A stretch of DNA of 33,569 bases from Alphaproteobacteria bacterium. GTDB lineage: Bacteria; Pseudomonadota; Alphaproteobacteria; Rhodobacterales; Rhodobacteraceae. Under the pieces are notes generated by a model. The model was not told the DNA's origin. It did no database searches and was given only the letters and a program-made list of their open reading frames with translations. A program made the translations under genes and the position numbers. This document shows positions 2,267 to 32,546 of this stretch, in pieces (positions within the stretch are counted from its first letter, which is position 1; every line of letters starts with the position of its first letter). Where the stretch lies: assembly GCA_003697125.1 (NCBI GenBank), contig RFGB01000257.1:1-33569 (forward strand). The letters run 5' to 3'.

Positions 2267-3928
2267 ATGGCCGCGACGACAGGGAGCGCGATCGCCTGCG
2301 ACATCGCCGTGATCGGGGCGGGACTCGCGGGGGGGCTGGTGGCGGCGGATCTGGCACGGGCCGGCCTGTCGGTGACGCTGGTCGAATCCGGCCCCCCCCA
2401 GCCACCGCCGCCCCGGCCAAGCGGCCGGCTGGCGCGGCTCGGTGCCATCTTGGCCGATCCGCGTGCGGCCATCGCGCCTGGGCGCTGGCCCGAGATGCTG
2501 CTGGTGGAGGATCCCGCCCGCCCCGGCCGCGTCCGCGCCCTGCCGCCGGTCCTGGGTCACGGGCCGGGCGGTTCGGCCACCCTCTACGGCGCGGCGCTGA
2601 CCCGTCTGCGCCGCTGCGACATCGAGGCGGATTACCGGCCCCGCGATCAGGACGCGGCCGGGGCGGTGCTGCCCAATGCCTGGCCGATCGGGTTCGACGA
2701 GCTGCGCGTCTGGTATGACCGCGCCGAGGCGGTCCTGGGCCTGGTGGGACAGCGCGATCCCGGCGACCCAGATCCCGCACCGCCCCTGCCCGCCGCGCCG
2801 CCCGTCTGCCCCCGCGACGCCAATCTGGCGGGGGATCTGGCGGCGCGGGGTTGCGCCCCCTTCCGGTTGCCCGTGGGCATCGCCTATCGCCCGGGCTGCA
2901 CCGAATGCCAGGGGCATGCCTGCCCCCGGGGCTGCAAGGCCGACAGCCTGGTGCGGGCCCTGCGCCCTGCGCTGGCGACGGGACGGGTGCGCATGCTGTG
3001 CGCACTGACCGCTCGGCGCATTGCGCGGCGCGACGGCATGCTGGTGGTCGAAGCCGTCGATGCGGCCGGCCAGGTGGCCGAGCTGGCGGCGCGCCGGGTG
3101 GTTCTGGCCGCGGGCGCCCTCAACACGCCGCGCATCCTGATGCGCTCCGGCGGACTGTGGGGCCGGGCGGACCCGCCCGGCCTGCTGGGCGCGGGGCTGA
3201 TGTTCCACATCAGCGACATCCTTGCCGTCTTCGACCGCCGCGACGGGGAAATCTGGGGGCCGCGCAAGACCATCTGCCTGCGTGACTTCTACCGGCATGG
3301 AGGGGAACCGCTTGGCGAGGTGCAGTCGCTGGGCCTCGATGTCACACCGGGCCAGATCGCGGCCTATCTGGCCGAGGAGGCCGCCGCGCTCGGCCTCGGC
3401 CGCATCCGTCCGCTGGTCATGCTGGCCACCCGCGCCCCGGCGATGATCGCCGCGCGGCTGTTCGCGCGGGCCCATCTTCTGGCCACCATTCTCGAGGATC
3501 TGCCGCTTGCCGCGAACCGGGTGCTGCCCGATCCGCCCGGGCCGCCACCGGCCGGGCCCGATCCGATCCGGCTGCGCTATGGCGTCACGGCGGACGTGGC
3601 GCGCCGCGCCGCGGTGATGCGCCGGCTGGTGCGCGCGGCCTTCGCCCCGAACCGGGTTCGTTTCCTGTCGCGGCCCGGGCGGCCGAACTGGGGCCATCCC
3701 ATGGGCACCTGCCGGATGGGCGGCAGCCCCGGGGATTCGGTCTGTGACCCGGCAGGGCGGCTGTGGGGGGCGCCCGATATCCGCATCGCCGACGCCTCCG
3801 TGCTGCCATCGTCGGGAGGCACCAACCCCTCGCTGACCATCGCCGCACTGGCCCTGCGGCTGGCGGCCGATCTTGCGGCCGAGCTGGGCGGGCAGACCCT
3901 CAGCGGGCCAGCCCAAGCTTCCGCCTGA
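2267..3928 (+). CDS. GMC-family FAD-dependent oxidoreductase
   Basis: This 553-residue protein has an N-terminal FAD-binding Rossmann motif (GAGLAG, residues 17-22, ending in acidic VESG). The C-terminal GMC catalytic block contains GHPMGTCRMG (His477) and SGGTNPSLTI (Asn520), the usual His/Asn pair that oxidises an alcohol. A four-cysteine cluster (Cys211, 214, 219, 223; C-x2-C-x4-C-x3-C) resembles that in the gluconate/sorbitol-dehydrogenase branch. There is no signal peptide. In that branch the large subunit is exported with a Tat-signal partner, and a Tat-signal microprotein is encoded nearby at 4658-4861 on the other strand. The start has GGGGAA upstream. The gene converges with, and overlaps by 29 bp, the SDR gene. 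The substrate is unknown; an alcohol or sugar in the polysaccharide pathway is inferred from context. Confidence 0.85.
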   Translation: MAATTGSAIACDIAVIGAGLAGGLVAADLARAGLSVTLVESGPPQPPPPRPSGRLARLGAILADPRAAIAPGRWPEMLLVEDPARPGRVRALPPVLGHGPGGSATLYGAALTRLRRCDIEADYRPRDQDAAGAVLPNAWPIGFDELRVWYDRAEAVLGLVGQRDPGDPDPAPPLPAAPPVCPRDANLAGDLAARGCAPFRLPVGIAYRPGCTECQGHACPRGCKADSLVRALRPALATGRVRMLCALTARRIARRDGMLVVEAVDAAGQVAELAARRVVLAAGALNTPRILMRSGGLWGRADPPGLLGAGLMFHISDILAVFDRRDGEIWGPRKTICLRDFYRHGGEPLGEVQSLGLDVTPGQIAAYLAEEAAALGLGRIRPLVMLATRAPAMIAARLFARAHLLATILEDLPLAANRVLPDPPGPPPAGPDPIRLRYGVTADVARRAAVMRRLVRAAFAPNRVRFLSRPGRPNWGHPMGTCRMGGSPGDSVCDPAGRLWGAPDIRIADASVLPSSGGTNPSLTIAALALRLAADLAAELGGQTLSGPAQASA

Positions 3929-10263: not shown

Positions 10264-10678
10264 GCCCTGCCCTCCTGCCATGAGCTGATAATTGTCTATG
10301 CATCAAAAATTTCCGCATCGCCAGAATTATTGTGATGCCGAAAAAACCGCCATGTTTCAATGCCTTGCCAGGCATGGCCCGGGGGGCGTCTGCGGGGTTC
10401 GGCAGCGGTGCCGGTGTTATCAGGTGTTAGGTATATGTGTTACGGGTCCTCTGGCGCGGCGCTGACCCTGGCTATCGCGTTGTGCGGCAAGGGGATTTTC
10501 CGCCGCCGCTCCGGGCCGGGCGATTCCGGAACCACGTTGGCGCGAATCCGCAACCACGCTGGCGCGAATCCGCAACCACGCTGTCCGCCTTGCCGGGCGG
10601 GGGCGGGCCGCCTAGGCTGGGTGTCATTGAAACCACGTTGAGGCATCCCGCCAGAGGATGCGCGGGGGATCGGGCAGG
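10264..10678. other. Replicon control region between the ParA-like gene and repA (candidate origin)
   Basis: About 415 bp without a convincing gene separates the divergent ParA-like gene from repA. Bases 10287-10347 form an AT-rich patch (runs of A and T, AATTGTC, AATTATTG) that is unusual in this GC-rich DNA and could be a DNA-unwinding element or a promoter. Three GTGTTA words lie at 10414, 10424 and 10437, the first two one helical turn apart. Tandem 22-bp iterons follow at 10530-10595, with an isolated half-copy at 10631. Short reading frames here on both strands resemble no known protein. The assignment as origin rests on this layout next to an RPA-family initiator gene. Confidence 0.6.
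10530..10640 (+). repeat. 22-bp iterons upstream of repA
   Basis: Unit 1 (10530-10551) and unit 2 (10552-10573) are head-to-tail 22-mers of the form AACCACGYTGGCGCGAATCC plus GC, differing at one base. Unit 3 (10574-10595) keeps the first ten bases (AACCACGCTG) and then diverges. A fourth AACCACGTTG stands at 10631-10640, 57 bp after unit 3 begins and 48 bp upstream of the repA start. A spacing of 22 bp puts the boxes on nearly the same face of the helix. Such iterons are typical binding sites for plasmid initiators and often autoregulate the initiator gene. Confidence 0.75.
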
Positions 10679-11722
10679 ATGGCAGCGGAGAGCGGGGCGG
10701 GATCCGTTCCGGCGCAGCGTGCCGCCGGGCAGCTGGCCTTCGTGTTCTGCGACATTCTCGATGTCGTGCCCAAGGACGACATGGCGACGATGGAGCATCC
10801 GGTCTTCTCGCTGTCCACCCGCCCGGACCGGCGGATCCTGCGCTATGACCACGGGCCGGTGCGGGTCGAGATCACCCCCTCGGTCAAGGGGCTGGCGACG
10901 ATCCACGACAAGGACATCCTGATCTACTGCATCAGCCAGCTGGTGGCCCGGCTGAACCGGGGCGAGCCGGTGGCGCGCGAGCTGCGCCTGATCGCCCAGG
11001 ACCTGATGCAGGCCACCGGGCGCGAGACCTCGGGCGATGGCTACCGGCGCCTGCGCGAGGCCTTCGAGCGGCTGGCCGGCACCCGGATCGTCACCAATAT
11101 CGCCACCGGCGGGATCGAGACCACGCGGGGCTTCGGGCTGATCGATGGCTGGGAGATCCTGCGCCGCACCCGTTCGGGGCGGATGATCAGCGTCAGCGTC
11201 GTCCTCTCCGACTGGCTCTACCGCGCGGTGCTGGCCCGTTCGGTCCTGACCCTGTCGCGGGATTACTTCCGCCTGCGCAAGCCGCTGGAACGGCGCGTCT
11301 ACGAGCTTGCGCGCAAGCATTGCGGGCGGCAGCCGGAATGGCGCGTGGGGCTGGGAACGCTGCTGGCCAAGACCGGCTCGGCCTCGCCGCTGCGGGTGTT
11401 CCGCAAGATGATCCGCGACATCGCCGCCGCCGATACCCTGCCCGACTACCGGCTGGAGCTGACCGGGGACGACATCGTCGTGGTGACCCAGCGCCGGGAT
11501 CATCTGGTCGAGGAGGAGGGCTGGCCGCGCCTGCCCGCGGGCACCCATGAGGCGGCCCGCGCCGCCGCCCCGGGCTATGATCCCTACTGGCTGGAACGGG
11601 AATGGCGCGCGATGTGGGCCGCCTCGGGCAGGCCGCGGCTGCGCAGCCCCGCCCGCGCCTTCCTCGCCTTCTGCCGCAGCCGCGCGGCGCGGGCCCCGCT
11701 CGGGGGGGAGGGATCGCGATGA
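10679..11722 (+). CDS. repA: Plasmid replication initiator, RPA family
   Basis: This initiator of about 347 residues matches the RPA family of alphaproteobacterial plasmids. The conserved N-terminal segments are present in order: KDDMATMEHPVFSLSTRPDRR, then HDKDILIYCISQLVARLNRG, then a winged-helix-like region (GYRRLREAFERLAGTRIVTNI) and SRDYFRLRKPLERRVYELAR. It would bind the iterons just upstream, open the origin and recruit host replication proteins. I prefer ATG 10679, with a G-rich tract about ten bases upstream; ATG 10658 (seven codons longer) is in frame but its AGAGG touches the start codon. The gene is followed after 91 bp by parA and then parB on the same strand, so replication and partition probably form one operon. 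Confidence 0.92.
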   Translation: MAAESGAGSVPAQRAAGQLAFVFCDILDVVPKDDMATMEHPVFSLSTRPDRRILRYDHGPVRVEITPSVKGLATIHDKDILIYCISQLVARLNRGEPVARELRLIAQDLMQATGRETSGDGYRRLREAFERLAGTRIVTNIATGGIETTRGFGLIDGWEILRRTRSGRMISVSVVLSDWLYRAVLARSVLTLSRDYFRLRKPLERRVYELARKHCGRQPEWRVGLGTLLAKTGSASPLRVFRKMIRDIAAADTLPDYRLELTGDDIVVVTQRRDHLVEEEGWPRLPAGTHEAARAAAPGYDPYWLEREWRAMWAASGRPRLRSPARAFLAFCRSRAARAPLGGEGSR

Positions 11723-11813
11723 CCGCCGCCGCCCGGGGCCGGTTCGGCCTTGCCTCGCGCCCCCGCCCGGCCGATTCTCCCCCCCGGTCGGGAATCCTGT
11801 GCGAGGATGGATC

Positions 11814-13043
11814 ATGACGGAGCCCTGCCCGGCGGAAGGCGGACTGGCCGAAGTCGATCTTGCGGCGCTGGACCGGCTGGCGACCGCGGCCGAGACGGTG
11901 ATCGAGCGGCTGCGCGAGCGGGTCTTCGCCGAGGGGGCGCGCAAGCGGCTGGAGCTGCGCTTCCAGCCGCGGGCGGCCGCCGCGATGGCGGGCACCACCG
12001 TCGCCGCGATCCGCGCCGCCGAGGCGGCCGGCGCCCTGCCCGATCCCGCCGCCGGTCAGCCGGGGGGGCGGCATCCGGGCTATGACCTGGCCGCGGTCAA
12101 CGCCATCCGGGCGCATTTCGGCACCCTGCCCTGGCGGGCCGAGAGCGACCCGCCGCTGGTCATGGCGGTGCAGAACTTCAAGGGCGGGGTCGGCAAGTCC
12201 ACCCTGGTCTGCCACCTCGCCCAGTATCTCGCGCTCAGGGGATACCGGGTCTGCGTGATCGATTGCGACAGCCAGGCCACCACCACCGCGGTGTTCGGCC
12301 TCAACCCCGATGTCGATGTGGACGAGGAGCGCGAGACCCTCTACCCCTTCTTCCGCCATGGCGGGCCCGCCAGCCTGCACTATGCCCTGCGCCCCACCCA
12401 CTGGCCGGGAATCGCCCTGATCGCCGCCAATCTCGGCCTCTATGACGCGGAATACGAATTCGCCGCCCGGCTGGCGCGCGAGGACGGCTTCGTGCTCGAC
12501 CGCCTGCGCGAGGGGATCGCCACCATCTCGGACGCGTTCGACGTCGTCCTCCTCGATCCGCCGCCGGCGCTGGGGATGATCTCGCTGTCGGTGCTGCGCG
12601 CGGCCGACGCGCTGCTGATCCCCGCGCCCCCGAGCACCATCGACTTCGGATCCACCGCCCATTTCCTGCGCATGCTCGCCTCCACCCTGGCCGAGCTTGC
12701 CCGCCATGGCGGAGAGCGCCATTACCGCTTCGTGCGGCTCCTGGCCACCAAGCTCGACGAGAACAAGAGCGCCCATCACGCCATCCGGCGGATGATGGCG
12801 CATGTGTTCGCGGGCGGCCTGCTTGACGCGACGCTGAAGGACAGCGCCGAGATCGACAATGCCGCCGCGGCGCTGTCCACCGTCTATGAGGTGACCGGCC
12901 CCGCGGCCCGGACCGAGACCCATCGCCGCGCCCGGGCCTTCCTCGATGCGGTGGGGGCCGAGGTCGAGGCGCTGATCCGCGCCACATGGCCGGCCTCCGG
13001 GCCGGCGCCAGCGAGGGGAGAGGGAGATGACGAAGCGCCATGA
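11814..13043 (+). CDS. parA: Partition ATPase ParA
   Basis: This 409-residue partition ATPase has an N-terminal winged-helix/MerR-like DNA-binding region (about residues 48-100). A canonical deviant Walker A follows (KGGVGKST, 123-130, with the signature lysine present), then CVIDCDSQATTT and a Walker B-like DVVLLDPPPALG. This is the ParA/RepA type found in low-copy alphaproteobacterial plasmids, which uses ATP and nonspecific DNA binding to segregate plasmid copies and represses its own operon through the N-terminal domain. ATG 11814 follows a GAGGATGGATC stretch; the frame is open further upstream, but that overlaps repA and is not conserved. The 3' end overlaps parB by 17 bp, indicating coupled translation. 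Confidence 0.93.
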   Translation: MTEPCPAEGGLAEVDLAALDRLATAAETVIERLRERVFAEGARKRLELRFQPRAAAAMAGTTVAAIRAAEAAGALPDPAAGQPGGRHPGYDLAAVNAIRAHFGTLPWRAESDPPLVMAVQNFKGGVGKSTLVCHLAQYLALRGYRVCVIDCDSQATTTAVFGLNPDVDVDEERETLYPFFRHGGPASLHYALRPTHWPGIALIAANLGLYDAEYEFAARLAREDGFVLDRLREGIATISDAFDVVLLDPPPALGMISLSVLRAADALLIPAPPSTIDFGSTAHFLRMLASTLAELARHGGERHYRFVRLLATKLDENKSAHHAIRRMMAHVFAGGLLDATLKDSAEIDNAAAALSTVYEVTGPAARTETHRRARAFLDAVGAEVEALIRATWPASGPAPARGEGDDEAP

Positions 13044-14010
13044 GGAGCTGATGCGCGACGTCCTGGGCGGGCTGCCCGCAACCGGCACCCCCCCGCAGCC
13101 GGCCGCCGCGCCCGCGCGCGAGACGCGCTTCCTGAAGCGGTCCACGGGGCTGGCCGAGCGGCTGTCGGGCGACCGCGTCGAGAAGACCCTGCTGTGGGTC
13201 GATCCCGCCCGCTGCCGCATGTGGGAACGGCACAACCGCCGCTATGATCTGCTGAACGAGAGCAACTGCGCCGACCTGATCGAGGGGATCAAGGCGCAGG
13301 GCGGGCAGGAATTCCCCGCCATCGTCCGCCGGGTGTCCGACGGGCGGCATGATTTCGAGGTGATCTGCGGCGCCCGCCGGCACTGGGCGATCAGCTGGCT
13401 GCGCGCCAACACCTATCCGCAGTTCCGCTTCCTGGTCGAGGTGCGCGACCTGACCGATGAGGAGGCCTTCCGCCTTTCCGACATCGAGAACCGCGACCGC
13501 CAGGACATCTCGGACTGGGAACGGGCCTGCGACTATGCCGAGGCGGTCCGGCTCTACTATGGCGGCCGCCAGAAGCGGATGGCCGAACGGCTCGAGGTCT
13601 CCGAATCCTGGCTGTCGCGCTATCTCGACCTCGCCCGCCTGCCCCGGCGCATCGTCGCCGCCTATCGCGACGTGACCGAGATCCGCGAATCCCATGCCCG
13701 GGCGCTGAAGCCGCTCCTGGCCGATCCGGCCACCCGCGAACGGGTGCTGGCGCGCGCCGACGCGATCGCCGCCGAACAGGCCGAACGCCCCATCTCCGCC
13801 CCCGCGGTGCTGGCCGCCCTGCGCGCCGCGGCCCGCCGCCCCGCCCCGCGGCCCGCGGCGCGCAGCTATCCCGCCCCCGACGGATCGGGCGCGATCACCG
13901 TGCAGGCGCGCGGCCGCAGCATCCGGGCGGAGTTCCCCGCCACGCTCTCGCGCGATGCGCTCGAGGCCGCCTTCCGCGCCTATCTTGCCGACCGCTTCGG
14001 CGAGGGCTGA
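13027..14010 (+). CDS. parB: Partition protein ParB/RepB-like
   Basis: This 327-residue ParB-family protein carries the core features in order. The ParB/Srx nucleotide-binding domain holds the arginine-rich box GARRHWA (115-121; GERR-x-RA in most ParBs). ENRDRQDIS (154-162) follows, then a helix-turn-helix (about 183-206, RMAERLEVSESWLSRYLDLA) and a C-terminal dimerisation region. It should bind a parS site and load ParA. The start at 13027 has GAGGGGAGAGGGAG directly upstream and overlaps the end of parA by 17 bp. An 18-bp perfect palindrome begins at the base after its stop codon and is the obvious parS candidate. Confidence 0.92.
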   Translation: MTKRHEELMRDVLGGLPATGTPPQPAAAPARETRFLKRSTGLAERLSGDRVEKTLLWVDPARCRMWERHNRRYDLLNESNCADLIEGIKAQGGQEFPAIVRRVSDGRHDFEVICGARRHWAISWLRANTYPQFRFLVEVRDLTDEEAFRLSDIENRDRQDISDWERACDYAEAVRLYYGGRQKRMAERLEVSESWLSRYLDLARLPRRIVAAYRDVTEIRESHARALKPLLADPATRERVLARADAIAAEQAERPISAPAVLAALRAAARRPAPRPAARSYPAPDGSGAITVQARGRSIRAEFPATLSRDALEAAFRAYLADRFGEG

Positions 14011-23609: not shown

Positions 23610-24911
23610 TCAGACATCGCCGCCGGCGGGAAAACGGGCGGCCTGCTCGGCCCGCAGCCGGTCGATCAGCCGGCCCGGGGGCAGTTCGACATCGGCATAG
23701 GTCAGGGGGGTGTCCCGGGGGATGTCGCGCTTCAGCCGGCAGCCCTCGGCCACCCCCATGGGCAGCAGCCCCTCGCGCGCCGCCACATCGGCATTCTCCG
23801 CCTCGCCATAGGTCATGTACCAGCCGATGCCGTCAAGGATCTCGCCCGCGCGCAGATCGGTCTTGGCCCGCGCGATCACCTCGACCCGCGGCGCGCCCAG
23901 CGGGGCCATGACGCAGTCGCCGAACAGCGCGACGCGCGCGGCCGAGACCGGCACCTCGAAATGGCACAGGTGATAGGGGGTGTAGAAGCAATAGAGCGGC
24001 CCCTCCCCCAGCTTGTAGAGGTTGAGATAGTGGCGCTGGCCGGGATCCTCGGTGGTGGCCAGGACGAAGACCCCGGGGCCGGGGCGGGCGCCCACGACGT
24101 AATCGACGATGCCGCCCATGGATTTCAGCATGTCGATGTCATAGGCCGTCACCAGCTCGTCGACATGGCCGCGGTGATCGGCCCCGATCATGCCGCGCCT
24201 GGGGACGCGGAAGCCGGCGGCGTTGGCGACGATGGCCTGTTCGAACGAGATCTTGGTGCCGTCGGCGAAGCTTGTCACCATGTGGGGCTTCTGGCCCCAG
24301 CGTTCGGCGAAGGCCTTCTGGGTGGTGGGGGTGCGGTAGGGGTCCTGCAGCCCCTTGATGTTGCCGGCCACCAGCGGGGTCAGGCCCATGCCCCGCACGA
24401 AGCGGATCAGGTTCATCTGCACGCCTGGCTGGTCGCCGTCGCAGCCCGAGAGGATGACCCCCGCCCGGTCGGCCATGACCTTCAGGATCGGTCCGACGGT
24501 GCCGTCGAGTTCGGCATTCATCAGCACCACATGGTTGCCATGGGCGATCGCCTCGGTCACCACCCGGGCGCCGAACTCGATCGCCCCGGTCACCTCGATC
24601 AGCACGTCGACATTCTCGGCCCGGGCCAGCAGCATCGCATCCTCGGTGACCGCCCGCCGGCCGGCGCGGATCGCATCCTCCAGCGCCGACTGGGTCGAGA
24701 CCTCGACCGCATCATCCGCCCCCGCCTCCGCATAGGCGCGGCGCGCCCCGGCGATGTTGCGGTTCGCGATCGCCACCAGCGCCATGCCCGGGACATGGTT
24801 GAGGATCTGGCTGGCGATGCCGCGGCCCATGAAGCCGGCCCCGATCATGCCGACCCGGACGGGGCGGCCCTCCTCGGCCCGGCGGCGCAGCGCGCTGTCG
24901 ACGATGATCAT
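23610..24911 (-). CDS. NAD(P)-dependent oxidoreductase with C-terminal SAF domain
   Basis: This 433-residue protein has an N-terminal Rossmann fold with GMIGAGFMGRG (GxGxxG at residues 24-29), resembling the NAD-binding half of homoserine dehydrogenase. Its central region contains ILSGCDGDQPGVQMNLIRFV and KGLQDPYRTPTTQKAFAE. The C-terminal stretch (about 340-433; ARAKTDLRAGEILDGIGWYM and DIPRDTPLTYADVELP) resembles a SAF domain. Proteins of this architecture are found in surface-sugar loci, but their reactions are largely unassigned. The ATG overlaps the stop of the RmlC-family gene as ATGA. The substrate may be a keto-sugar or small acid used to build the substituent; this is inference. Confidence 0.85.
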   Translation of the reverse strand: MIIVDSALRRRAEEGRPVRVGMIGAGFMGRGIASQILNHVPGMALVAIANRNIAGARRAYAEAGADDAVEVSTQSALEDAIRAGRRAVTEDAMLLARAENVDVLIEVTGAIEFGARVVTEAIAHGNHVVLMNAELDGTVGPILKVMADRAGVILSGCDGDQPGVQMNLIRFVRGMGLTPLVAGNIKGLQDPYRTPTTQKAFAERWGQKPHMVTSFADGTKISFEQAIVANAAGFRVPRRGMIGADHRGHVDELVTAYDIDMLKSMGGIVDYVVGARPGPGVFVLATTEDPGQRHYLNLYKLGEGPLYCFYTPYHLCHFEVPVSAARVALFGDCVMAPLGAPRVEVIARAKTDLRAGEILDGIGWYMTYGEAENADVAAREGLLPMGVAEGCRLKRDIPRDTPLTYADVELPPGRLIDRLRAEQAARFPAGGDV

Positions 24912-25444
24912 GCCCGCTCTCCGATCAGCGGCCAGGCCGCATCCTTTTCCGAGATCACCTCCACCGCCACCGGCCAGTCGATCCCCAGCGCCGGATCGTC
25001 CCAGCGCAGCCCGCCCTCCGCCCCGGGGGTGTAGAACTCGCCCACCTGGTAGATCACCTCGGCCCCGTCGGTGAGGGTGATGTAGCCATGGGCGAACATC
25101 TCGGGCACATAGAGCGCGCGGCGGTTCGCGGCCGACAGCTCCACGCCGACATGCTGCAGATAGGTGGGGCTTTCCGGGCGCAGGTCCACGATCACGTCAT
25201 GGATCGCCCCGGCGGTGCAGCGCACCAGCTTGGTCTCGGCGGCGGGGGGGCGCTGGAAATGCAGGCCCCGCAGCGTTCCCCGGCGGTGGTTGAAGGACAG
25301 GTTGGTCTGGGCCACCATCGGCTTCAGGCCGTGGGCCTCGAATTCCCGCGCGCAGAAGGTGCGGGCGAAGAAGCCGCGGTGGTCGCGCCGCTCCTCCAGG
25401 TCGATGATGAAGGCACCCTTCAGATGCGTCTCGGTGAAGATCAT
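24908..25444 (-). CDS. dTDP-4-dehydrorhamnose 3,5-epimerase family (RmlC-like cupin)
   Basis: This 178-residue cupin has RmlC landmarks: RGFFARTF, FNHRRGTLRGLHFQ with the catalytic His62, VDLRPESPTY, VPEMFAHGYITL and Tyr132 in IYQVGEFY. It epimerises C3 and/or C5 of a 4-keto-6-deoxy nucleotide sugar. No rmlA, rmlB or rmlD is in the window, whereas rfbF and an SDR are present, so the substrate may be CDP-linked rather than dTDP-linked, or the other rml genes lie elsewhere. Both junctions are ATGA overlaps, with the acyltransferase gene before and the SAF gene after. Confidence 0.9.
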   Translation of the reverse strand: MIFTETHLKGAFIIDLEERRDHRGFFARTFCAREFEAHGLKPMVAQTNLSFNHRRGTLRGLHFQRPPAAETKLVRCTAGAIHDVIVDLRPESPTYLQHVGVELSAANRRALYVPEMFAHGYITLTDGAEVIYQVGEFYTPGAEGGLRWDDPALGIDWPVAVEVISEKDAAWPLIGERA

Positions 25445-26460
25445 CGCGATCGGTCCGTTCCGGTTGCCGCCAGCGGCCGGGGACGGGGGGCGGACACGGC
25501 CGCAAGCACCATGCGCCGCAGCGCCTCGGCCGGCCGGTCGACGGCGAGATAGAAGAGGATCGCGCCCAGGGGGGCGAGGAGGAGGAGGAAGGCGAGCTTC
25601 TCCGGGTCGGTGAAGTCCCGGCCCAGAAGCTGCCGCCCGATCTGGATGGCGGGATAATGCACCAGATACAGGGCATAGGACAGGTTGCCCAGATGCCGGT
25701 CGATCGCCGGGCTGTCCTGGCGGACATTCCAGGCGACGAAGGGCAGCAGGATCAGCGCCCAGCCCATGGCGAACAGCCTGTCGAGGGCGAAGTCGCCGCT
25801 GCCCCAGATCACGAAGGGATGCAGTGCCGGCACCGCCCAGGCGATCACCCCCGCCAGCACGAACGCCCCCGCCGACAGCGCCGCCATCCGGCCCGAGGCG
25901 CGCAGCCCCAGCTGATGGATCGCCATGCCGGCCAGGAACAGCGGCAGATACGCGATGGCAAGCCGCAGCCCCGCCCCGAAATCCAGCGCCCAGCCCAGCA
26001 CCGTCAGCGCCGCCAGCCCCGCGGCCAGCGCCGCCGGCGGCAGATGGCGCAGCGCCAGCCACAGGGCGGGCAGCAGCAGGTAGAACTGCATCTCGATGTC
26101 CAGCGACCAGGCGATGCCGATCGGGTCGCGCCCATGGGTCGCCACCCCCAGAAGCGGCAGCGCGATCCAGGGCACGCGATCCCCGCCCCCGACCAGGAGC
26201 CGCGCCGCCAGCACCGCCAGCAGCCCCGCCACGGCGAAGGGCAGCCAGATGCGCAGCAGGCGCGCCGTCCAGAAGGTCAGCAGCGGCCAGGGGGCGTGGC
26301 GGTAATGCTGGTCATACATCCGCCCCACCCAGTAGCCGGACAGGGCGAAGAAGACCATCACCGCCGGGCTGCCGATCTGCAGCCGCGACAGATGCTCGAC
26401 CACCACCGCCATGGCCAGGATCAGGCGGAAGAGCCCGGGGCCCTGCAGCATGCCCGCCAT
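25441..26460 (-). CDS. Acyltransferase 3 family membrane protein
   Basis: This 339-residue polytopic protein has about nine or ten hydrophobic segments and features of the acyltransferase-3 (OafA/NodX-like) family: an early VVVEHLSR, where the His is the likely catalytic residue, FFALSGYWVGR, FWTARLLRIWLP, WSLDIEMQFYLLLP and LGNLSYALYLVHYP. Such enzymes O-acylate periplasmic or lipid-linked glycans using acyl groups supplied from the cytoplasm. In this operon with a carrier protein and ligase, it is the best candidate to place the acyl group on the polysaccharide. The start at 26460 is 12 bp from the GMC stop; ATG 26451 is an alternative. Confidence 0.9.
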   Translation of the reverse strand: MAGMLQGPGLFRLILAMAVVVEHLSRLQIGSPAVMVFFALSGYWVGRMYDQHYRHAPWPLLTFWTARLLRIWLPFAVAGLLAVLAARLLVGGGDRVPWIALPLLGVATHGRDPIGIAWSLDIEMQFYLLLPALWLALRHLPPAALAAGLAALTVLGWALDFGAGLRLAIAYLPLFLAGMAIHQLGLRASGRMAALSAGAFVLAGVIAWAVPALHPFVIWGSGDFALDRLFAMGWALILLPFVAWNVRQDSPAIDRHLGNLSYALYLVHYPAIQIGRQLLGRDFTDPEKLAFLLLLAPLGAILFYLAVDRPAEALRRMVLAAVSAPRPRPLAATGTDRSR

Positions 26461-26472
26461 CCCCGCCCCCCT

Positions 26473-27921
26473 TCAGCGCGCCAGCCGCGTGGCCAGGTGA
26501 TCGGCCAGCCGCAGCGACAGCTGCACGATGGTCAGCGTGGGGTTGGCATAGCCCCCCGACGGGAAGACCGAGGAGCCGGCGAGATGGAGATTGCCCAGCC
26601 CGTGCACCCTCAGCTGGGCATCGACCACCGAATCCGCGGGGCTGTTGCCCATCCGCGTGCCGCCCATGTGGTGCCAGCTGGCCATCACCCGGTCGACCGG
26701 GATCGGGCGGCGATCGTCCAGCACCCAGTCGAGCAGCCGCAGCCGGCCGATCCCCGCGGCCGCGAAGCCTTCGGCCAGCGCCATCACCGCGCGCGTCACC
26801 CCCGCCCGGTCGGCCGCCGACTTGCGCCAGTGCAGCACGACCCGCGGCAGGCCCAGCCGGTCGCGCGCCTCTCCCAGCGCCACGCGGTTGGCCGCATCGG
26901 GCAGCTGTTCGCACTGCGCGTGCACCCGCGCGCCGCAGACCAGGTTCTTGCCGAACGCGTCCATCACCGCCTGGCCGAGCGCGGGGGCCGCGCACATCAG
27001 GTCGGCGATCAGGGCCCGGGTCTGGTCGGGATAGGCCATCACGTCGATGTCGAAGGACAGGTTCAGCCCCCCGCTGCGCTCCAGCGCCGCGGGCGAGAGG
27101 GCGAAGAAGGCCTGATCGTTCACGAACAGCCCGTCCGGGTCGCGCCAGACCACCGCCTCGGCGACCGAGAAGGTCGGATGCTCCATCCAGTAGCGGCCGA
27201 GCGCGGCGGGCGGGATCAGCGCCTGTCCGTGGGTGGCATTGGCCCACAGCAGCAGGCGGGAATTCTCGATCCCCCCCAGGGCCAGGACGAAGTCGTCCGC
27301 CTCCACCTGCCAGCGCCGCTGCGCGCCGTCGCCGGCCTCGGTCACCACTTCCAGCGCGCGGATTCCCCCCGCCCCGGGCACCAGGTTGACCACCGCGCTG
27401 CGCAGGCACAGCCGCAGATGCGGATCCTCGGCGCAGAAGGCGCGATACTTCTCGCCGAAGCGCACCGGGGGGCTGACATGGAAGACGGTGCGCAGCAGAT
27501 CGCTTCCCACCGGCCGGTCCGCGAAGCGGTCCGGAATCTCCAGGATCTCCGCGGCCGCGGCCAGGAAGGGATCGAGATCGGCGCGGCCGATCGGCCAGCC
27601 TGGGCGGGGCGGATCGGCGCGGGGCAGGAAGTCGTGGGCATCGAGCGGGCGGCAATAGCCCGCCCAGTGTCCCGAGGTTCCCCCGAAGCAGCGCAGCCGG
27701 GCGAGGTCGAGCTCGAAATAGGGATCCCCCTCGACCCGGCCGGCATAGAGCTGCTGGCTGGCATCGTCGGGCTCGGGGCCGCCCGCCTCCAGCAGCAGGA
27801 CATCGATGCGGCGCAGGGCCAGCGCCCGGGCCAGGGTCATCCCCGCGGGGCCGGAACCCGCGACGCAGACCCGGGCGCGGACGACATGGCCTTCGGGAAA
27901 GGTTGATGCATCGAGGATCAT
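26473..27921 (-). CDS. GMC-family FAD-dependent oxidoreductase
   Basis: This 482-residue flavoprotein has FAD-binding VAGSGPAGMTLA near residues 20-31 (ending in the acidic LLLEAGG), RCFGGTSGHWAGYCRPL, and the catalytic C-terminus with HHMGGTRMGN (His418) and SSVFPSGGYANPTLTI (Asn460). It has no signal peptide. It lacks the four-cysteine cluster of the other GMC protein (2267-3928), so the two are not recent duplicates. Its ATG shares one base with the stop of a 44-residue Tat-like peptide (TGATG), and no good ribosome-binding site precedes it, so translation is probably coupled. It may oxidise an alcohol on a sugar or lipid-linked precursor, possibly in the periplasm. Confidence 0.88.
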   Translation of the reverse strand: MILDASTFPEGHVVRARVCVAGSGPAGMTLARALALRRIDVLLLEAGGPEPDDASQQLYAGRVEGDPYFELDLARLRCFGGTSGHWAGYCRPLDAHDFLPRADPPRPGWPIGRADLDPFLAAAAEILEIPDRFADRPVGSDLLRTVFHVSPPVRFGEKYRAFCAEDPHLRLCLRSAVVNLVPGAGGIRALEVVTEAGDGAQRRWQVEADDFVLALGGIENSRLLLWANATHGQALIPPAALGRYWMEHPTFSVAEAVVWRDPDGLFVNDQAFFALSPAALERSGGLNLSFDIDVMAYPDQTRALIADLMCAAPALGQAVMDAFGKNLVCGARVHAQCEQLPDAANRVALGEARDRLGLPRVVLHWRKSAADRAGVTRAVMALAEGFAAAGIGRLRLLDWVLDDRRPIPVDRVMASWHHMGGTRMGNSPADSVVDAQLRVHGLGNLHLAGSSVFPSGGYANPTLTIVQLSLRLADHLATRLAR

Positions 27922-28055
27922 CAGCGATCGGCCCGGTCGAGCACCCAGCGGCGGCGGATGCGGAACAGGCGGGGCAGGGCGATGCGGGCCACGAGCCCCG
28001 CCGCGGCCAGCCCGGCCAGAAGCCGCCGCCGGGTGGGTCCGGCCGCCTCAGCCAT
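27921..28055 (-). CDS. 44-residue Tat-like microprotein coupled to the GMC gene
   Basis: The tiny protein begins MAEAAGPTRRRLLAGLAAAG, a twin-arginine-like signal (TRRRLLAG) with a moderately hydrophobic core, then ends in a basic tail (RLFRIRRRWVLDRADR). No clear cleavage site is seen, so it could be a membrane anchor. The start at 28055 overlaps the end of the glycosyltransferase gene by 8 bp and has a G-rich tract upstream. Its stop overlaps the GMC start by one base (TGATG). The tight fit on both sides argues for a real gene. It parallels the 67-residue Tat peptide at 4658-4861. A role as minimal Tat partner for the signal-less GMC enzyme is inferred. Chance occurrence of a short frame is the main alternative. 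Confidence 0.5.
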   Translation of the reverse strand: MAEAAGPTRRRLLAGLAAAGLVARIALPRLFRIRRRWVLDRADR

Positions 28056-29208
28056 GCCGCCCCCCCGCACAGGCCGCGCCCGGCCGCGCCGCGGGCGCGG
28101 CCTCCAGCATCGCCGCCAGCCCGGCAAGCTGTCCGGCCCGCCGCTCCATCCCCGCCGTCGGCGGCAGGCCGGCGATGTCGAGGATCGCCTGCCAGCGGTG
28201 CAGGTGGTCATGGCGGGTCAGCGCGTTCAGCATGTTGGCCCGGCGCGCCGCGGCGATCCGCTCGGGCTGGGCATCCAGCGCATCGATGATCTCCCCCGCC
28301 TCGGCGCAGTCATAGGGCAGGGGGATGACGGCGTCGGGCCAGCCCAGATGGGCGCGGAATGCCGGGCTGTCGATCACGTCGCCCAGAAGGATCGCGCCCC
28401 CGGCGATGCCCTCGATGTAGCGCAGGCCGAATTCCTCCTGGCGGCCGCGCTCCTGCCGTTCGGCCACCTTGGCCATGTGCGAGATCAGATAGCGGCTGCG
28501 CTTCATCCGCTGGGCGTAGAGCCAGCGATGCTCGGCGGTGTCATGGGCGAAGATGCCGCCGCGGATGGAGGTGAATTCGTAATGCCAGCCCCGCCGGCGG
28601 GCATGGTCCAGAAGCGCGGCATGGGTGCGCGGCGCGATGCGGCTGATGTTGTTGACGTGGATGCAGCGTTCGGGCGCGGATGGCAGCGGGCTGAACAGGA
28701 TCGTGTCCACCCCCCAGGGCAGATAGCTGACCGGCACCGACAGGCGTTCCTGCAGCACCGGGGTGGTCGCCGCCATGGCGCAGAAGACGTGATCGAAGCG
28801 ATCGAGGATGTCGAGCAGCCGCCCCGCGCGGGGGATGTCGTCGATCCACAGCTCCTGCAGCCAGCAGATCGCCCGGCCCGCGCGCCGGCGCCAGTCCGGC
28901 ACGGCGTCCAGCGCGACGAGATCGCGCGGCACGGCGGCGTAGAAGAAGAACAGGTCGACCCCCCCCGCCGGGACCGATGCCGCCAGCCCCGAGGGCACCA
29001 GCCCCTGCAGCCCCCCCAGCCGCGCCAGCCGGTTGCGCATCCGCAGCCGCAGGGCCGAGGCCGGGCCGGGCCGGGGTGCGATGATCGTCGCCGCCTCGAA
29101 CGCGCCGGCGATCAGATCCTCGAATTCATGGATGCCGCAGCGGGACAGATGCGTCGACAGGTTGCGCAGTGACAGGAGACCGATTCGACGGGCGGCTTCG
29201 GCGCTCAC
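28048..29208 (-). CDS. Glycosyltransferase, CgeB/GT1-like
   Basis: This protein of about 386 residues has CgeB-type glycosyltransferase features: ICWLQELWIDDIPRAG, DHVFCAMAATTPVLQE, VSYLPWGVDTILFSP, and a donor-half region EFGLRYIEGIAGGAILLGD followed by IPLPYDCAEAGEIIDAL. I chose a GTG start at 29208 because AGGGGA lies six bases upstream; the frame is open to 29445, but that part is arginine/proline-rich and non-conserved and would overlap the gene at 29373. It opens the ten-gene minus-strand operon. It should transfer a sugar in the cytoplasm; donor and acceptor are unknown. Confidence 0.78.
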   Translation of the reverse strand: MSAEAARRIGLLSLRNLSTHLSRCGIHEFEDLIAGAFEAATIIAPRPGPASALRLRMRNRLARLGGLQGLVPSGLAASVPAGGVDLFFFYAAVPRDLVALDAVPDWRRRAGRAICWLQELWIDDIPRAGRLLDILDRFDHVFCAMAATTPVLQERLSVPVSYLPWGVDTILFSPLPSAPERCIHVNNISRIAPRTHAALLDHARRRGWHYEFTSIRGGIFAHDTAEHRWLYAQRMKRSRYLISHMAKVAERQERGRQEEFGLRYIEGIAGGAILLGDVIDSPAFRAHLGWPDAVIPLPYDCAEAGEIIDALDAQPERIAAARRANMLNALTRHDHLHRWQAILDIAGLPPTAGMERRAGQLAGLAAMLEAAPAARPGAACAGGRHG

Positions 29209-29230
29209 CGGAAATCCCCTGTCATGTACA

Positions 29231-29312
29231 CCCTGTTCCACACATTTTCCGGCCGGATCGGGCAGATGGGTTCCGGCCACAAATTCAACACAACCCTGTT
29301 CCAGTCTAGGAT
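29231..29312. promoter_or_regulatory. Repeats and possible promoter in the divergent gap before the HAD-UbiA gene
   Basis: The 164-bp divergent gap (29209-29372) holds two direct copies of CCCTGTTCCA (29231-29240 and 29294-29303), two of TTCCGGCC (29247 and 29271), and a variant of the TTCCG-N-CACAAA motif at 29271. TTCAAC (29284-29289) and TAGGAT (29307-29312), 17 bp apart, form a weak plus-strand promoter candidate. The gap is clearly less GC-rich than its surroundings. It is likely the control region for the ten-gene operon and the HAD-UbiA gene. Confidence 0.4.
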
Positions 29313-29372
29313 GCAGGGGAATGGTGATCAAGCAGTTGCGCGGGCACGGACAGGATCTGGCAGGGACGGGCG

Positions 29373-30833
29373 ATGAGGGTCGAGCGCAGCATCGAGGCGG
29401 CGGGGCGCGTGCCGCCGGTTCTGGCCGTGGATCTGGACGGGACATTGCTGCGCACGGATCTGCTGCACGAGACGCTGCTGGCGGGGCTGGCCAGCCGCCC
29501 CCGCGCCACCCTGGCCGCCCTGACGGCGCTGCGGCGCGGCCGCGCGGCGCTGAAGGCGGCGCTGGCCGCGATGCCGGTGGATCCGGCCGGCCTGCCGCTG
29601 AACCAGGCGGTGGTGGCGCATGTGCGCGCGGCGCGCGCGGCGGGAATGCGCACCGTGCTGGTCTCGGCCTCCGATGCGCGTCTGGTGCGCGCGGTGGCCG
29701 AGCGGACGGGGCTGTTCGACGAGGCCCATGGCTCGGAGCCGGGGCGCAACCTGAAGGGCGCGGCCAAGGCCGCGTTCCTTGCCCGGCGGTTCGGCGAGGG
29801 GGGGTTCGCCTATGTCGGCGATTCGCGCGCCGATCTTCCGGTCTGGGCGCGGGCGGCCGAGGCGGTGACGGTCGGGGCGGGCCCCGGCCTGCGCCGGGCG
29901 GCCGCGGCGGCCGCCCCGGCCGTGCGGCATCTGGAACCGGCCGGCCGGCTGGGGATCGGCGGCGCCCATCTGCGGGCGCTGCGCCCGCATCAGTGGCTGA
30001 AGAACCTGCTGGTGTTCCTGCCGGCGCTGGCCGCCCATGCCGCCGATCCGGCGCTGTGGCTGGGCGCGCTGATGGCCTTCATCGCCTTCGGGCTGACCGC
30101 CTCCTCGGTCTATGTGCTGAACGACCTGCTGGATCTGGGCCCCGATCGCGCCCATCCGCGCAAGCGCCACCGCCCCTTCGCCGCGGGCGCGGTGCCGATC
30201 GCCCATGGCATGGTGATGGCGCCCGGGCTGCTGGCGGGTGGGGTGGTGGTGGCGCTGATCGGCACGCCGCCGCTGTTCCTCGCGGTGCTGGGGGGATACT
30301 ACGCGCTGACGCTCGCCTATTCGCTGCTGCTCAAGCGGCGGCTGGTGATCGACATCTGCGCGCTGGCCGGCCTGTACACCCTGCGGGTGATGGGGGGGGC
30401 GGCAGCCACCGGGGTGGCGCTGTCGCCGTGGATGCTGGCCTTCTCGGGCTTCCTGTTCCTGGCGCTGGCGGCGGTGAAGCGCCAGGCGGAACTGGTCGAC
30501 GGCATCGCCTCGGGGCGCGAGCGGGCGGCGGGGCGGGCCTACATGGCCGGCGACCTGCCGATCGTGACGATGATGGCGCTGGCGGCGGGCTATGCCGCGG
30601 TGCTGGTGCTGGCGCTCTACATCGCCAGCCCCGAGGTGCGGATGCTCTATGGCCAGCCCGCCCTGCTGTGGGGCGTGGCGCCGGTGATGGTCTACTGGAT
30701 CAGCCGCATGGTGATGATCGCCCATCGCGGACGGATGACCGATGATCCCATCGTCTTCGCCCTGCGCGATCCGGTCAGCCTGGCCTGCGGCGCCGCGGTG
30801 GCCGGCCTGGGCGTGGCCGCCGCCTTCCTGTAG
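29373..30833 (+). CDS. HAD phosphatase-UbiA prenyltransferase fusion (DPPR synthase-like)
   Basis: This 486-residue fusion has an N-terminal HAD hydrolase domain with the nucleophile motif AVDLDGTLL (Asp20/Asp22), VSAS (98-101) and YVGDSRADLPV (148-158). From about residue 205 a UbiA-type membrane prenyltransferase follows: LRPHQWLKNLLVFLP, the Asp-rich NDLLDLGPDR (251-260) then HPRKRHRPFAAG, and KRRLVIDICALAGLYTLRV, with about eight helices. The UbiA half resembles decaprenyl-phosphate phosphoribosyltransferase. That enzyme makes a polyprenyl-phosphoryl phosphoribose whose 5-phosphate must later be removed, which the HAD domain might do in the same polypeptide. A lipid-linked ribose or arabinose donor for the polysaccharide would follow. 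The domain calls are solid; the reaction is inferred. Confidence 0.88.
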   Translation: MRVERSIEAAGRVPPVLAVDLDGTLLRTDLLHETLLAGLASRPRATLAALTALRRGRAALKAALAAMPVDPAGLPLNQAVVAHVRAARAAGMRTVLVSASDARLVRAVAERTGLFDEAHGSEPGRNLKGAAKAAFLARRFGEGGFAYVGDSRADLPVWARAAEAVTVGAGPGLRRAAAAAAPAVRHLEPAGRLGIGGAHLRALRPHQWLKNLLVFLPALAAHAADPALWLGALMAFIAFGLTASSVYVLNDLLDLGPDRAHPRKRHRPFAAGAVPIAHGMVMAPGLLAGGVVVALIGTPPLFLAVLGGYYALTLAYSLLLKRRLVIDICALAGLYTLRVMGGAAATGVALSPWMLAFSGFLFLALAAVKRQAELVDGIASGRERAAGRAYMAGDLPIVTMMALAAGYAAVLVLALYIASPEVRMLYGQPALLWGVAPVMVYWISRMVMIAHRGRMTDDPIVFALRDPVSLACGAAVAGLGVAAAFL

Positions 30834-30880
30834 GTCCTGCGCCTTGCCGCGGGAGGGGTGCAGTGGCATGGTTGATCCCT

Positions 30881-30923
30881 GCCCCCGCGCCGGCCGGGGC
30901 GGGGGCTGTGGCGTGGCCGGCGC
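30881..30923 (+). promoter_or_regulatory. Two mutually exclusive GC-rich hairpins between HAD-UbiA and xrtD
   Basis: GCCCCCGC (30881-30888) pairs with GCGGGGGC (30899-30906). GCGCCGGCC (30887-30895) pairs with GGCCGGCGC (30915-30923). The stems share bases, so only one can form at a time. They sit in the 129-bp gap before xrtD. No T-tract follows. An attenuator-like role is possible, but in DNA of this GC content chance is a serious alternative. Confidence 0.3.
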
Positions 30924-30962
30924 GGGTTCGGCGGCGGTCTGCCGGATGGGGAGTCTGGCGGC

Positions 30963-32546
30963 ATGACGACCGGTGTGATGGCGCGGGCGGCTGGCGGGGT
31001 TCCGGGGCTGTCCGTGGCGGGGATCTTCTGGCTTGTGGTGGCCCTTGCCGGGGCGGCGGCGGTGTTCTGGGAGGGGCTCGTCTCCCTCGGCATCGCATGG
31101 TCCACCCCCGAATACAGCCACGGGCCGCTGATCCCGCTCGTCTCCTTCTGGCTCTACCTGCGCGAGATGCGCTTCGTGCCGCCCGCCGCCCGGCCGGTGA
31201 CCGACCGCTGGCCGGGGGTGGCGCTGGCGCTTCTGGCGCTGGCCATCGGTCTGGCCGGGCATGTCGTGCAGATTCCCGACATCGTCACCTATGGCTTCAT
31301 CCTGTGGGTGGGGGGGCTGATCCTGACCGCCTATGGCCTGCGGCGCGGGATCATCTTCTGGCCGTCGGTGGTGCATCTGGTGTTCATGCTGCCGCTGCCC
31401 AACTTCCTCTACTGGCCGCTGTCGATCCAGCTGCAGCTGATCTCCTCGGAAATCGGCGTCTGGGTGATCCGGGCGCTGGGAATCCCCGTCCTGCTCGACG
31501 GCAATGTCATCGATCTCGGCCTCTACAAGCTGCAGGTGGCCGAGGCCTGCTCGGGCCTGCGCTACCTCTTCCCGATCCTCTCCTTCTCCTGGATCACCGC
31601 GCTGCTCTATCGCGGGCCGTTCTGGCACCGGGCGCTGCTGTTCCTGTCGGCCGCGCCGATCACGGTGCTGATGAACAGCTTCCGCATCGGCATGATCGGG
31701 GTTCTGGTCGATTCCTACGGGATCGCCCAGGCGGAAGGCTTCCTGCATGCCTTCGAGGGCTGGATCATCTTCCTGGCCTGTGTCGCCATCCTCCTGCTGA
31801 TGGCGGCGGTCCTGCAGCGGCTCGGCCCCCGGCCCAGGCCGCTCTCCCAGGCGCTCGATCTCGACTTCTCGGGACTGCACCTGCAGCTTGCCCGGCTGCG
31901 CGGGGTCGTCCCCTCGCCCGCGCTCATCACCGTCGCGCTGGCCGGCGCCGGCCTGGGGCTGGCGATGCATCTCGCCCCCCCGCGCGAGGCGATGGCGGTG
32001 GCGCGCGAACCGCTGGTGCTGTTCCCCCGCCTGGTGGGGGAATGGAGCGGGCAGACGATCCGGCTCGATCCCGAGGTGGAGCGGGTGCTGGCCGCGGACG
32101 ACTATCTGTCGGCGCGCTATCTGGGCGGGGACGGGGCGGTCGACCTGTTCATCGCCTGGTATCGCGCCCAGGCGGGGGGGGCGGGCATCCATTCGCCCGA
32201 GGTCTGCCTGCCCACCGGTGGGTGGGAGGTGTCGGCCTGGCGGCAGGAGACGGTCTCCCTGCCCGGCGGGCACGCGGTTCCGGTCAATCGCGCGGTGATC
32301 GCGCGCGGTCTGGAACGGCAGCTGGTCTGGTACTGGTTCGAGGGGCGGGGCCGGCGCGAGACGTCCGACTACATGGCCAAGATCGCGGTGGTCTGGGATT
32401 CGGCCACCACCGGGCGGTCGGACGGCGCGCTCGTCCGCCTCGTCACCCCCATCGCCCCGGGCGAGGACGAGGCCGCGGCCGCGGCGCGGCTGCGCCGCTT
32501 CCTGGCCGGGATCCTGCCCGATCTGCCCCGCTTCGTGCCCGAATGA
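30963..32546 (+). CDS. xrtD: Exosortase D (VPLPA-CTERM type) fused to EpsI domain
   Basis: This 527-residue protein has an N-terminal exosortase domain of about eight membrane helices. It carries the catalytic triad Cys196 (EACSGLRYL), Arg241 (MNSFRIGMIG) and His262 (HAFEGW). A soluble EpsI-type domain follows at about residues 330-527 (with GIHSPEVCLPTGGWEV). This fusion is the form described for the VPLPA-CTERM-specific exosortase of Rhodobacterales. It cleaves a C-terminal sorting signal from exported proteins and attaches them at the cell surface, and it is usually encoded in an EPS locus. ATG 30963 has GGGGAG eight bases upstream. No VPLPA-CTERM substrate is encoded in the window. The adjacent ATPase at 32705 is the usual neighbour of exosortases. 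Confidence 0.9.
   Translation: MTTGVMARAAGGVPGLSVAGIFWLVVALAGAAAVFWEGLVSLGIAWSTPEYSHGPLIPLVSFWLYLREMRFVPPAARPVTDRWPGVALALLALAIGLAGHVVQIPDIVTYGFILWVGGLILTAYGLRRGIIFWPSVVHLVFMLPLPNFLYWPLSIQLQLISSEIGVWVIRALGIPVLLDGNVIDLGLYKLQVAEACSGLRYLFPILSFSWITALLYRGPFWHRALLFLSAAPITVLMNSFRIGMIGVLVDSYGIAQAEGFLHAFEGWIIFLACVAILLLMAAVLQRLGPRPRPLSQALDLDFSGLHLQLARLRGVVPSPALITVALAGAGLGLAMHLAPPREAMAVAREPLVLFPRLVGEWSGQTIRLDPEVERVLAADDYLSARYLGGDGAVDLFIAWYRAQAGGAGIHSPEVCLPTGGWEVSAWRQETVSLPGGHAVPVNRAVIARGLERQLVWYWFEGRGRRETSDYMAKIAVVWDSATTGRSDGALVRLVTPIAPGEDEAAAAARLRRFLAGILPDLPRFVPE

Follow-up and report, generated by a model that had tools for sequence, protein, structure and literature searches.

A short gene beside a GMC oxidoreductase gene encodes a Tat-like peptide proposed as a minimal export partner

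The mini gene and its neighbours

The window, which is the whole stretch of 33,569 nucleotides analysed here, harbors a short gene (the mini gene) directly upstream of a gene for a GMC oxidoreductase, in a row of genes that all lie on the same strand (Table 1). The overlaps given in the original prediction, 8 bp with the upstream gene and one base common to the TGA of the mini gene and the ATG of the GMC gene (TGATG), agree with the coordinates, and the mini gene and the GMC gene are probably translationally coupled. The word "fused" in the title of that prediction is wrong, however, as the two are overlapping genes for separate polypeptides.

Table 1. Features around the mini gene in the window
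Feature	Position	Strand	Basis
Glycosyltransferase-like ORF upstream, 8-bp overlap with the mini gene	28048..29445	minus	weak PF13524 match under the cut-off
Mini Tat partner, 44 aa, MAEAAGPTRRRLLAGLAAAGLVARIALPRLFRIRRRWVLDRADR	27921..28055	minus	ORF list; conserved family; controls
Twin-arginine motif T-R-R-R-L-L and hydrophobic core, residues 8-27	27975..28034	minus	sequence; TIGR01409 below cut-off
C-terminal proposed docking tail FRIRRRWVLDRADR, residues 31-44, conserved W37, L39 and D43	27924..27965	minus	tail profile
TGATG stop/start overlap of mini partner and GMC	27919..27923	minus	ATGA or TGATG also in relatives
GMC oxidoreductase of 482 aa, the proposed cargo, without signal peptide	26473..27921	minus	PF05199 (GMC C-terminal domain), 90.7 bits; alignment; tree
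Acyltransferase family 3 gene downstream of GMC	25441..26460	minus	PF01757; same neighbour at L129/L135

The signal part of the window peptide scores 13.3 bits with TIGR01409, which is below the cut-off of 16.7, and its tail has RRRW at the place where most of the related tails have an [ND]G turn. The original description of a "basic tail" was incomplete, since three residues of the tail (W37, L39 and D43) are conserved as well; it is the conserved GW-x-L-x3-D tail, overlooked at that time, which makes a bare signal peptide a plausible escort. That the GMC enzyme has no signal of its own was confirmed on the 482-aa protein, whose N-terminus, MILDASTFPEGHVVRARVCVAGSGPAG, is followed directly by the FAD-binding motif (Rossmann motif GSGPAG at residues 22-27). 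TatC is encoded in the host genome (tatC).

The neighbours scanned (23610-32546) include glycosyltransferase-like, acyltransferase, RmlC, DRL/SAF oxidoreductase, UbiA and XrtD genes, and this exopolysaccharide setting (XrtD, glycosyltransferases, RmlC and acyltransferase) suggests that the substrate of the enzyme may be an envelope or exopolysaccharide-related sugar. Within this region (29373-32546), a HAD-UbiA prenyltransferase fusion of the PRK08238 type adjoins the exosortase XrtD (VPLPA-CTERM type). Beside the polysaccharide cluster (10658-14010), the replication initiator RPA (PF10134) precedes ParA-like and ParB-like ORFs, so the contig has the appearance of a plasmid or chromid fragment; on plasmid p1 of Jannaschia sp. 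CCS1, repA, XrtD and a GMC gene occur in a comparable combination. The plus strand of the window (2267-3928) codes for a further, distant GMC oxidoreductase, and no Tat-like partner was found on either side of it.

Conservation of the mini partner

The scanning of genome contigs with the window GMC gave 80 loci, nearly all from Mesorhizobium, plus Sinisalibacter. A short Tat-like ORF lies directly upstream of the GMC gene in all 80 loci, with an ATGA overlap at its end in 79 of them. The consensus tail of the 79 Mesorhizobium copies is EVNGWILKRSDLA. In the reading frame of this tail, pN is 0.077 and pS is 0.41, whereas pN is the larger of the two in either shifted frame, and selection thus acts on the mini reading frame; the check proposed with the original prediction, that the frame be conserved ahead of orthologous GMC genes and change mainly at synonymous sites, had a positive outcome. 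No exopolysaccharide cluster was apparent, by inspection, around the Mesorhizobium pairs, so the partnership seems independent of the exopolysaccharide pathway.

Wider searches of GMC loci from the family and the class of the window's source and from gammaproteobacteria (including Halomonas) again revealed mini partners, of about 41-80 aa, each consisting of a twin-arginine signal and a short tail, for which [ND]GW-x-L-x3-D is the usual pattern. All of them have RR, although the filter permitted KR; the tail Trp is missing in one (L114). The mini gene is located downstream of the GMC gene in two loci (L098 and L099), which means that the pairing survives a change of gene order. One locus (L100) is cut by a contig end, and no natural in-frame fusion of a mini partner with its GMC was found among the loci surveyed.

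Two irregular loci were recognized. In Sinisalibacter aestuarii (L008, 3833-5413), the mini ORF and the GMC share one frame with a TAG between them, and the GMC has no ATG, GTG or TTG start; this could reflect read-through, a start codon of an unusual kind or a broken gene. In Halomonas sp. PA16-9 (L087, 2953-4391), the GMC is apparently frameshifted and the mini partner intact, while the relatives L126 and L127 look whole.

At a GC content of about 72%, many long spurious ORFs are expected, and the mini gene could itself be one of them. All small ORFs were passed through a filter that requires a twin-arginine signal and, behind it, a W-x-L-x3-D tail. The 44-aa ORF is the only one of the 204 small ORFs of the window to pass, but the filter was designed after the family had been seen, and so the weight lies on the controls rather than on this count. 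Among related loci, 93 ORFs adjoining a GMC gene passed, in contrast to none of 7,764 control ORFs away from GMC genes, and none of the 10,345 ORFs in order-2 randomised windows did. Moreover, the tail of the window peptide fits a mini-tail profile built without it better than its own shuffles do (p ~1.5e-4). With the controls empty and the relatives under purifying selection in frame, by which a chance origin is already refuted for the family, a chance ORF is extremely improbable in the window too and was set aside; it is nearly certain that the mini gene is a real, conserved gene.

Longer Tat partners and the origin of the mini form

A maximum-likelihood tree has a branch (100/99 support) that sets apart 35 GMCs having a mini partner and two lacking one, whereas the GMCs outside this mini clade have partners of ~115-140 aa or none. 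These longer Tat partners (L005, L088, L089, L091, L104-L108, L111 and L136), which are frequent outside the clade, are encoded mostly downstream of the GMC gene, and in most of them a C-terminal (D/E)GW-x-L is followed by a TEAxLCALAAL-like stretch (L088 and L105 diverge). Both forms thus have a Tat signal, a related GMC gene next to them and a similar C-terminal motif, but the long partners possess a middle part of roughly 60-80 residues that is absent from the mini form.

Because of the similar motif at the C-terminus of the long partners, the mini form seems to have been reduced from them; this link to longer Tat partners had escaped the original prediction. Most of the mini tails score better than their own shuffles on a long-tail profile, even without the anchoring Trp, whereas a minority, including that of the window (p 0.19), do not. 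When two distant outgroups were added to the tree, the mini clade was nested in the long-partner GMCs, with long outgroup branches that leave the rooting unsure. Taken as sequence evidence, these likenesses suggest that the mini form derives from, or shares ancestry with, the ~115-140 aa partner. Neither the mini partners nor the long partners scanned had a match in Pfam or a family match at cut-off in NCBIfam, and a PDB sequence search with the long partners gave no significant relative. The ~115-140 aa Tat partners seem to constitute a separate, unnamed family.

Proposed export role and comparison with known hitchhikers

Tat hitchhiker small subunits have been described for fructose dehydrogenase and the Burkholderia glucose dehydrogenase, BcGDH (PMC6719666, PMC9727119). 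In BcGDH, the hitchhiker is the gamma subunit; it binds the GMC subunit, it is reportedly needed for proper folding and secretion, and its C-terminal region (Gly157-Phe158-Trp159 in 6a2u) lies in a hydrophobic cluster with the GMC enzyme (PMC6719666). The pair in the window is like BcGDH in having a small partner with the Tat signal and a GMC enzyme without a signal, and the conserved Trp in the mini tail recalls the C-terminal Trp region with which gamma packs on its enzyme. However, the gamma subunit, with a residue numbering beyond 160 and several helices, is far larger than the 44-aa peptide, and no sequence relation was detected between the two. A further difference lies in the 3Fe-4S cluster and the multiheme cytochrome of BcGDH, which are not seen at the window pair: the four-cysteine 3Fe-4S motif is absent from the window GMC, and no multiheme cytochrome c gene occurs among the neighbours scanned (23610-32546). 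The small subunits of fructose dehydrogenase and 2-ketogluconate/gluconate 2-dehydrogenase (Gluconate_2-dh3) are also described as Tat hitchhikers for GMC subunits, and neither the mini nor the long partners matched this or any other named small-subunit family in Pfam or NCBIfam. Given the lack of a family model, of the cysteines and of a cytochrome gene among the scanned neighbours, the window pair is not assigned to the BcGDH type; by analogy of signal, gene pairing and tail, it may nevertheless work like the BcGDH hitchhiker system.

In PaoABC, hydrogenase and formate dehydrogenase, an untagged subunit is exported with a Tat-tagged partner (PMC4273604, PMC10924467). The partner that bears the tag is a complete redox subunit in those systems, whereas the mini peptide comprises a signal and a short tail. 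No description of such a mini partner was found in the open-access literature, to which the search was confined (subscription papers lay outside it).

In two of the loci, the mini gene and the GMC gene are in one frame with only stop codons between them (mini part in front in L097 and behind in L099), so that both pairs could be folded as artificial read-through fusions. For the structure alignments, the mini peptides were left out, since MAFFT scattered such short rows, and plasmid-derived rows were removed. In both AlphaFold models the tail, whose rows had almost no alignment behind them, forms a strand, the [ND]G turn, a second strand and the start of a helix, with a pLDDT of about 60 in L097; in L099 the tail reaches 74-85 and the linker stays under 50. 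A confident hairpin past a disordered linker suggests, within the limits of such models, that the tail docks on the enzyme. A short strand is present at the GMC N-terminus in both models, and our guess is that it might pair with the hairpin of the tail. The L099 model, from the same clade as the window GMC, has as its nearest fold the FDH large subunit (9jqa_A; Z 40.4, rmsd 5.2, 431 aligned), followed by Burkholderia glucose dehydrogenase alpha (8grj_B; Z 36.0, rmsd 5.6, 430 aligned); the VIA structural alignment ranges cover the enzyme only, with the tail outside them.

We consider it likely that the mini peptide is the Tat partner of the GMC enzyme, and we infer, with good though lesser confidence, that it exports the enzyme by docking of its tail. 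The overlapping stop and start codons would allow peptide and enzyme to be made together, the enzyme would fold and take up FAD in the cytoplasm, and the tail (W-x-L-x3-D, usually after an [ND]G turn) would dock on the folded enzyme. The twin-arginine signal would then bring the pair through the Tat pore, and the exported oxidoreductase would act on the periplasmic side. More broadly, and somewhat more probably than the contrary, the mini peptides may be detachable signal peptides, each with a Tat signal encoded by a gene of its own and a "mature" part that is wholly a ~15-20-residue tail recognising one folded flavoenzyme. They would have arisen once, by reduction of a larger escort in which the middle part of an ancestor-type partner of ~115-140 aa was lost, and been retained in both alpha- and gammaproteobacteria, where they might act in trans on more than one GMC.

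An unlikely alternative to an export escort is that the peptide is mainly an uncleaved anchor, inserted through Tat or in the membrane, by which the enzyme is held at one or the other face of the inner membrane. An A-x-A after the hydrophobic core is found in only 10 of 32 mini partners and not in that of the window, and a conserved tail suits a tether equally well, but a plain anchor would not need the RR kept in all members, and export by Tat hitchhikers is known from relatives of the enzyme (PMC6719666). Anchor and escort are not exclusive, as an exported anchor would combine both. It is very unlikely that the mini gene is a translational leader or coupler, the translation of which opens the GMC start while the peptide itself is inert. 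ATGA or TGATG overlaps are indeed nearly universal where the mini gene is upstream; however, the amino acids of signal and tail are conserved, a homologous-looking motif exists in the longer partners, and the mini genes downstream of GMC (L098 and L099), together with the in-frame selection, led us to set this reading aside. The small Tat partner of BcGDH, reportedly needed for folding as well as secretion (PMC6719666), gives some ground for seeing the peptide as a chaperone or regulator, which would keep the enzyme inactive or protect the loading of its cofactor and for which export would be a side role, but 44 residues, half of them signal, leave scant room for a separate activity, so the probability of this reading is very low indeed.

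If export by the mini peptide is correct, this peptide is among the smallest export escorts recognised, as Tat hitchhiking has so far been known with a full subunit as the signal bearer. Should a signal and a short tail suffice, the pair would be the smallest natural test of the acceptance of a non-covalent folded passenger by Tat and of partner recognition; as a tool, a two-part tag this small would offer a simple way of exporting folded enzymes, and GMC enzymes that annotation would call cytoplasmic would move to the periplasm. The mini genes also represent a conserved class of short genes outside any Pfam or NCBIfam family model.

Orthologous loci without any frame at this place, named in the original prediction as evidence that would speak against it, were found only as duplicated copies with sisters that have the peptide. 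The GMCs closest to that of the window, L124 (57%) and L131 (54%), have no adjoining mini gene, and each of the two genomes contains, in the same polysaccharide cluster, a second GMC copy that has a mini gene and, downstream, the acyltransferase known from the window. For L124 and L131, one has to suppose either that a peptide is shared in trans, so that it may serve two enzymes, or that the gene has been lost, possibly with the enzyme functioning in the cytoplasm. A single mini Tat gene together with two GMC copies in one polysaccharide cluster was observed in L137 (9612-11042 and 15225-16682) and L138 (8813-10309 and 14374-15804), which offer a natural case for whether one escort serves two enzymes.
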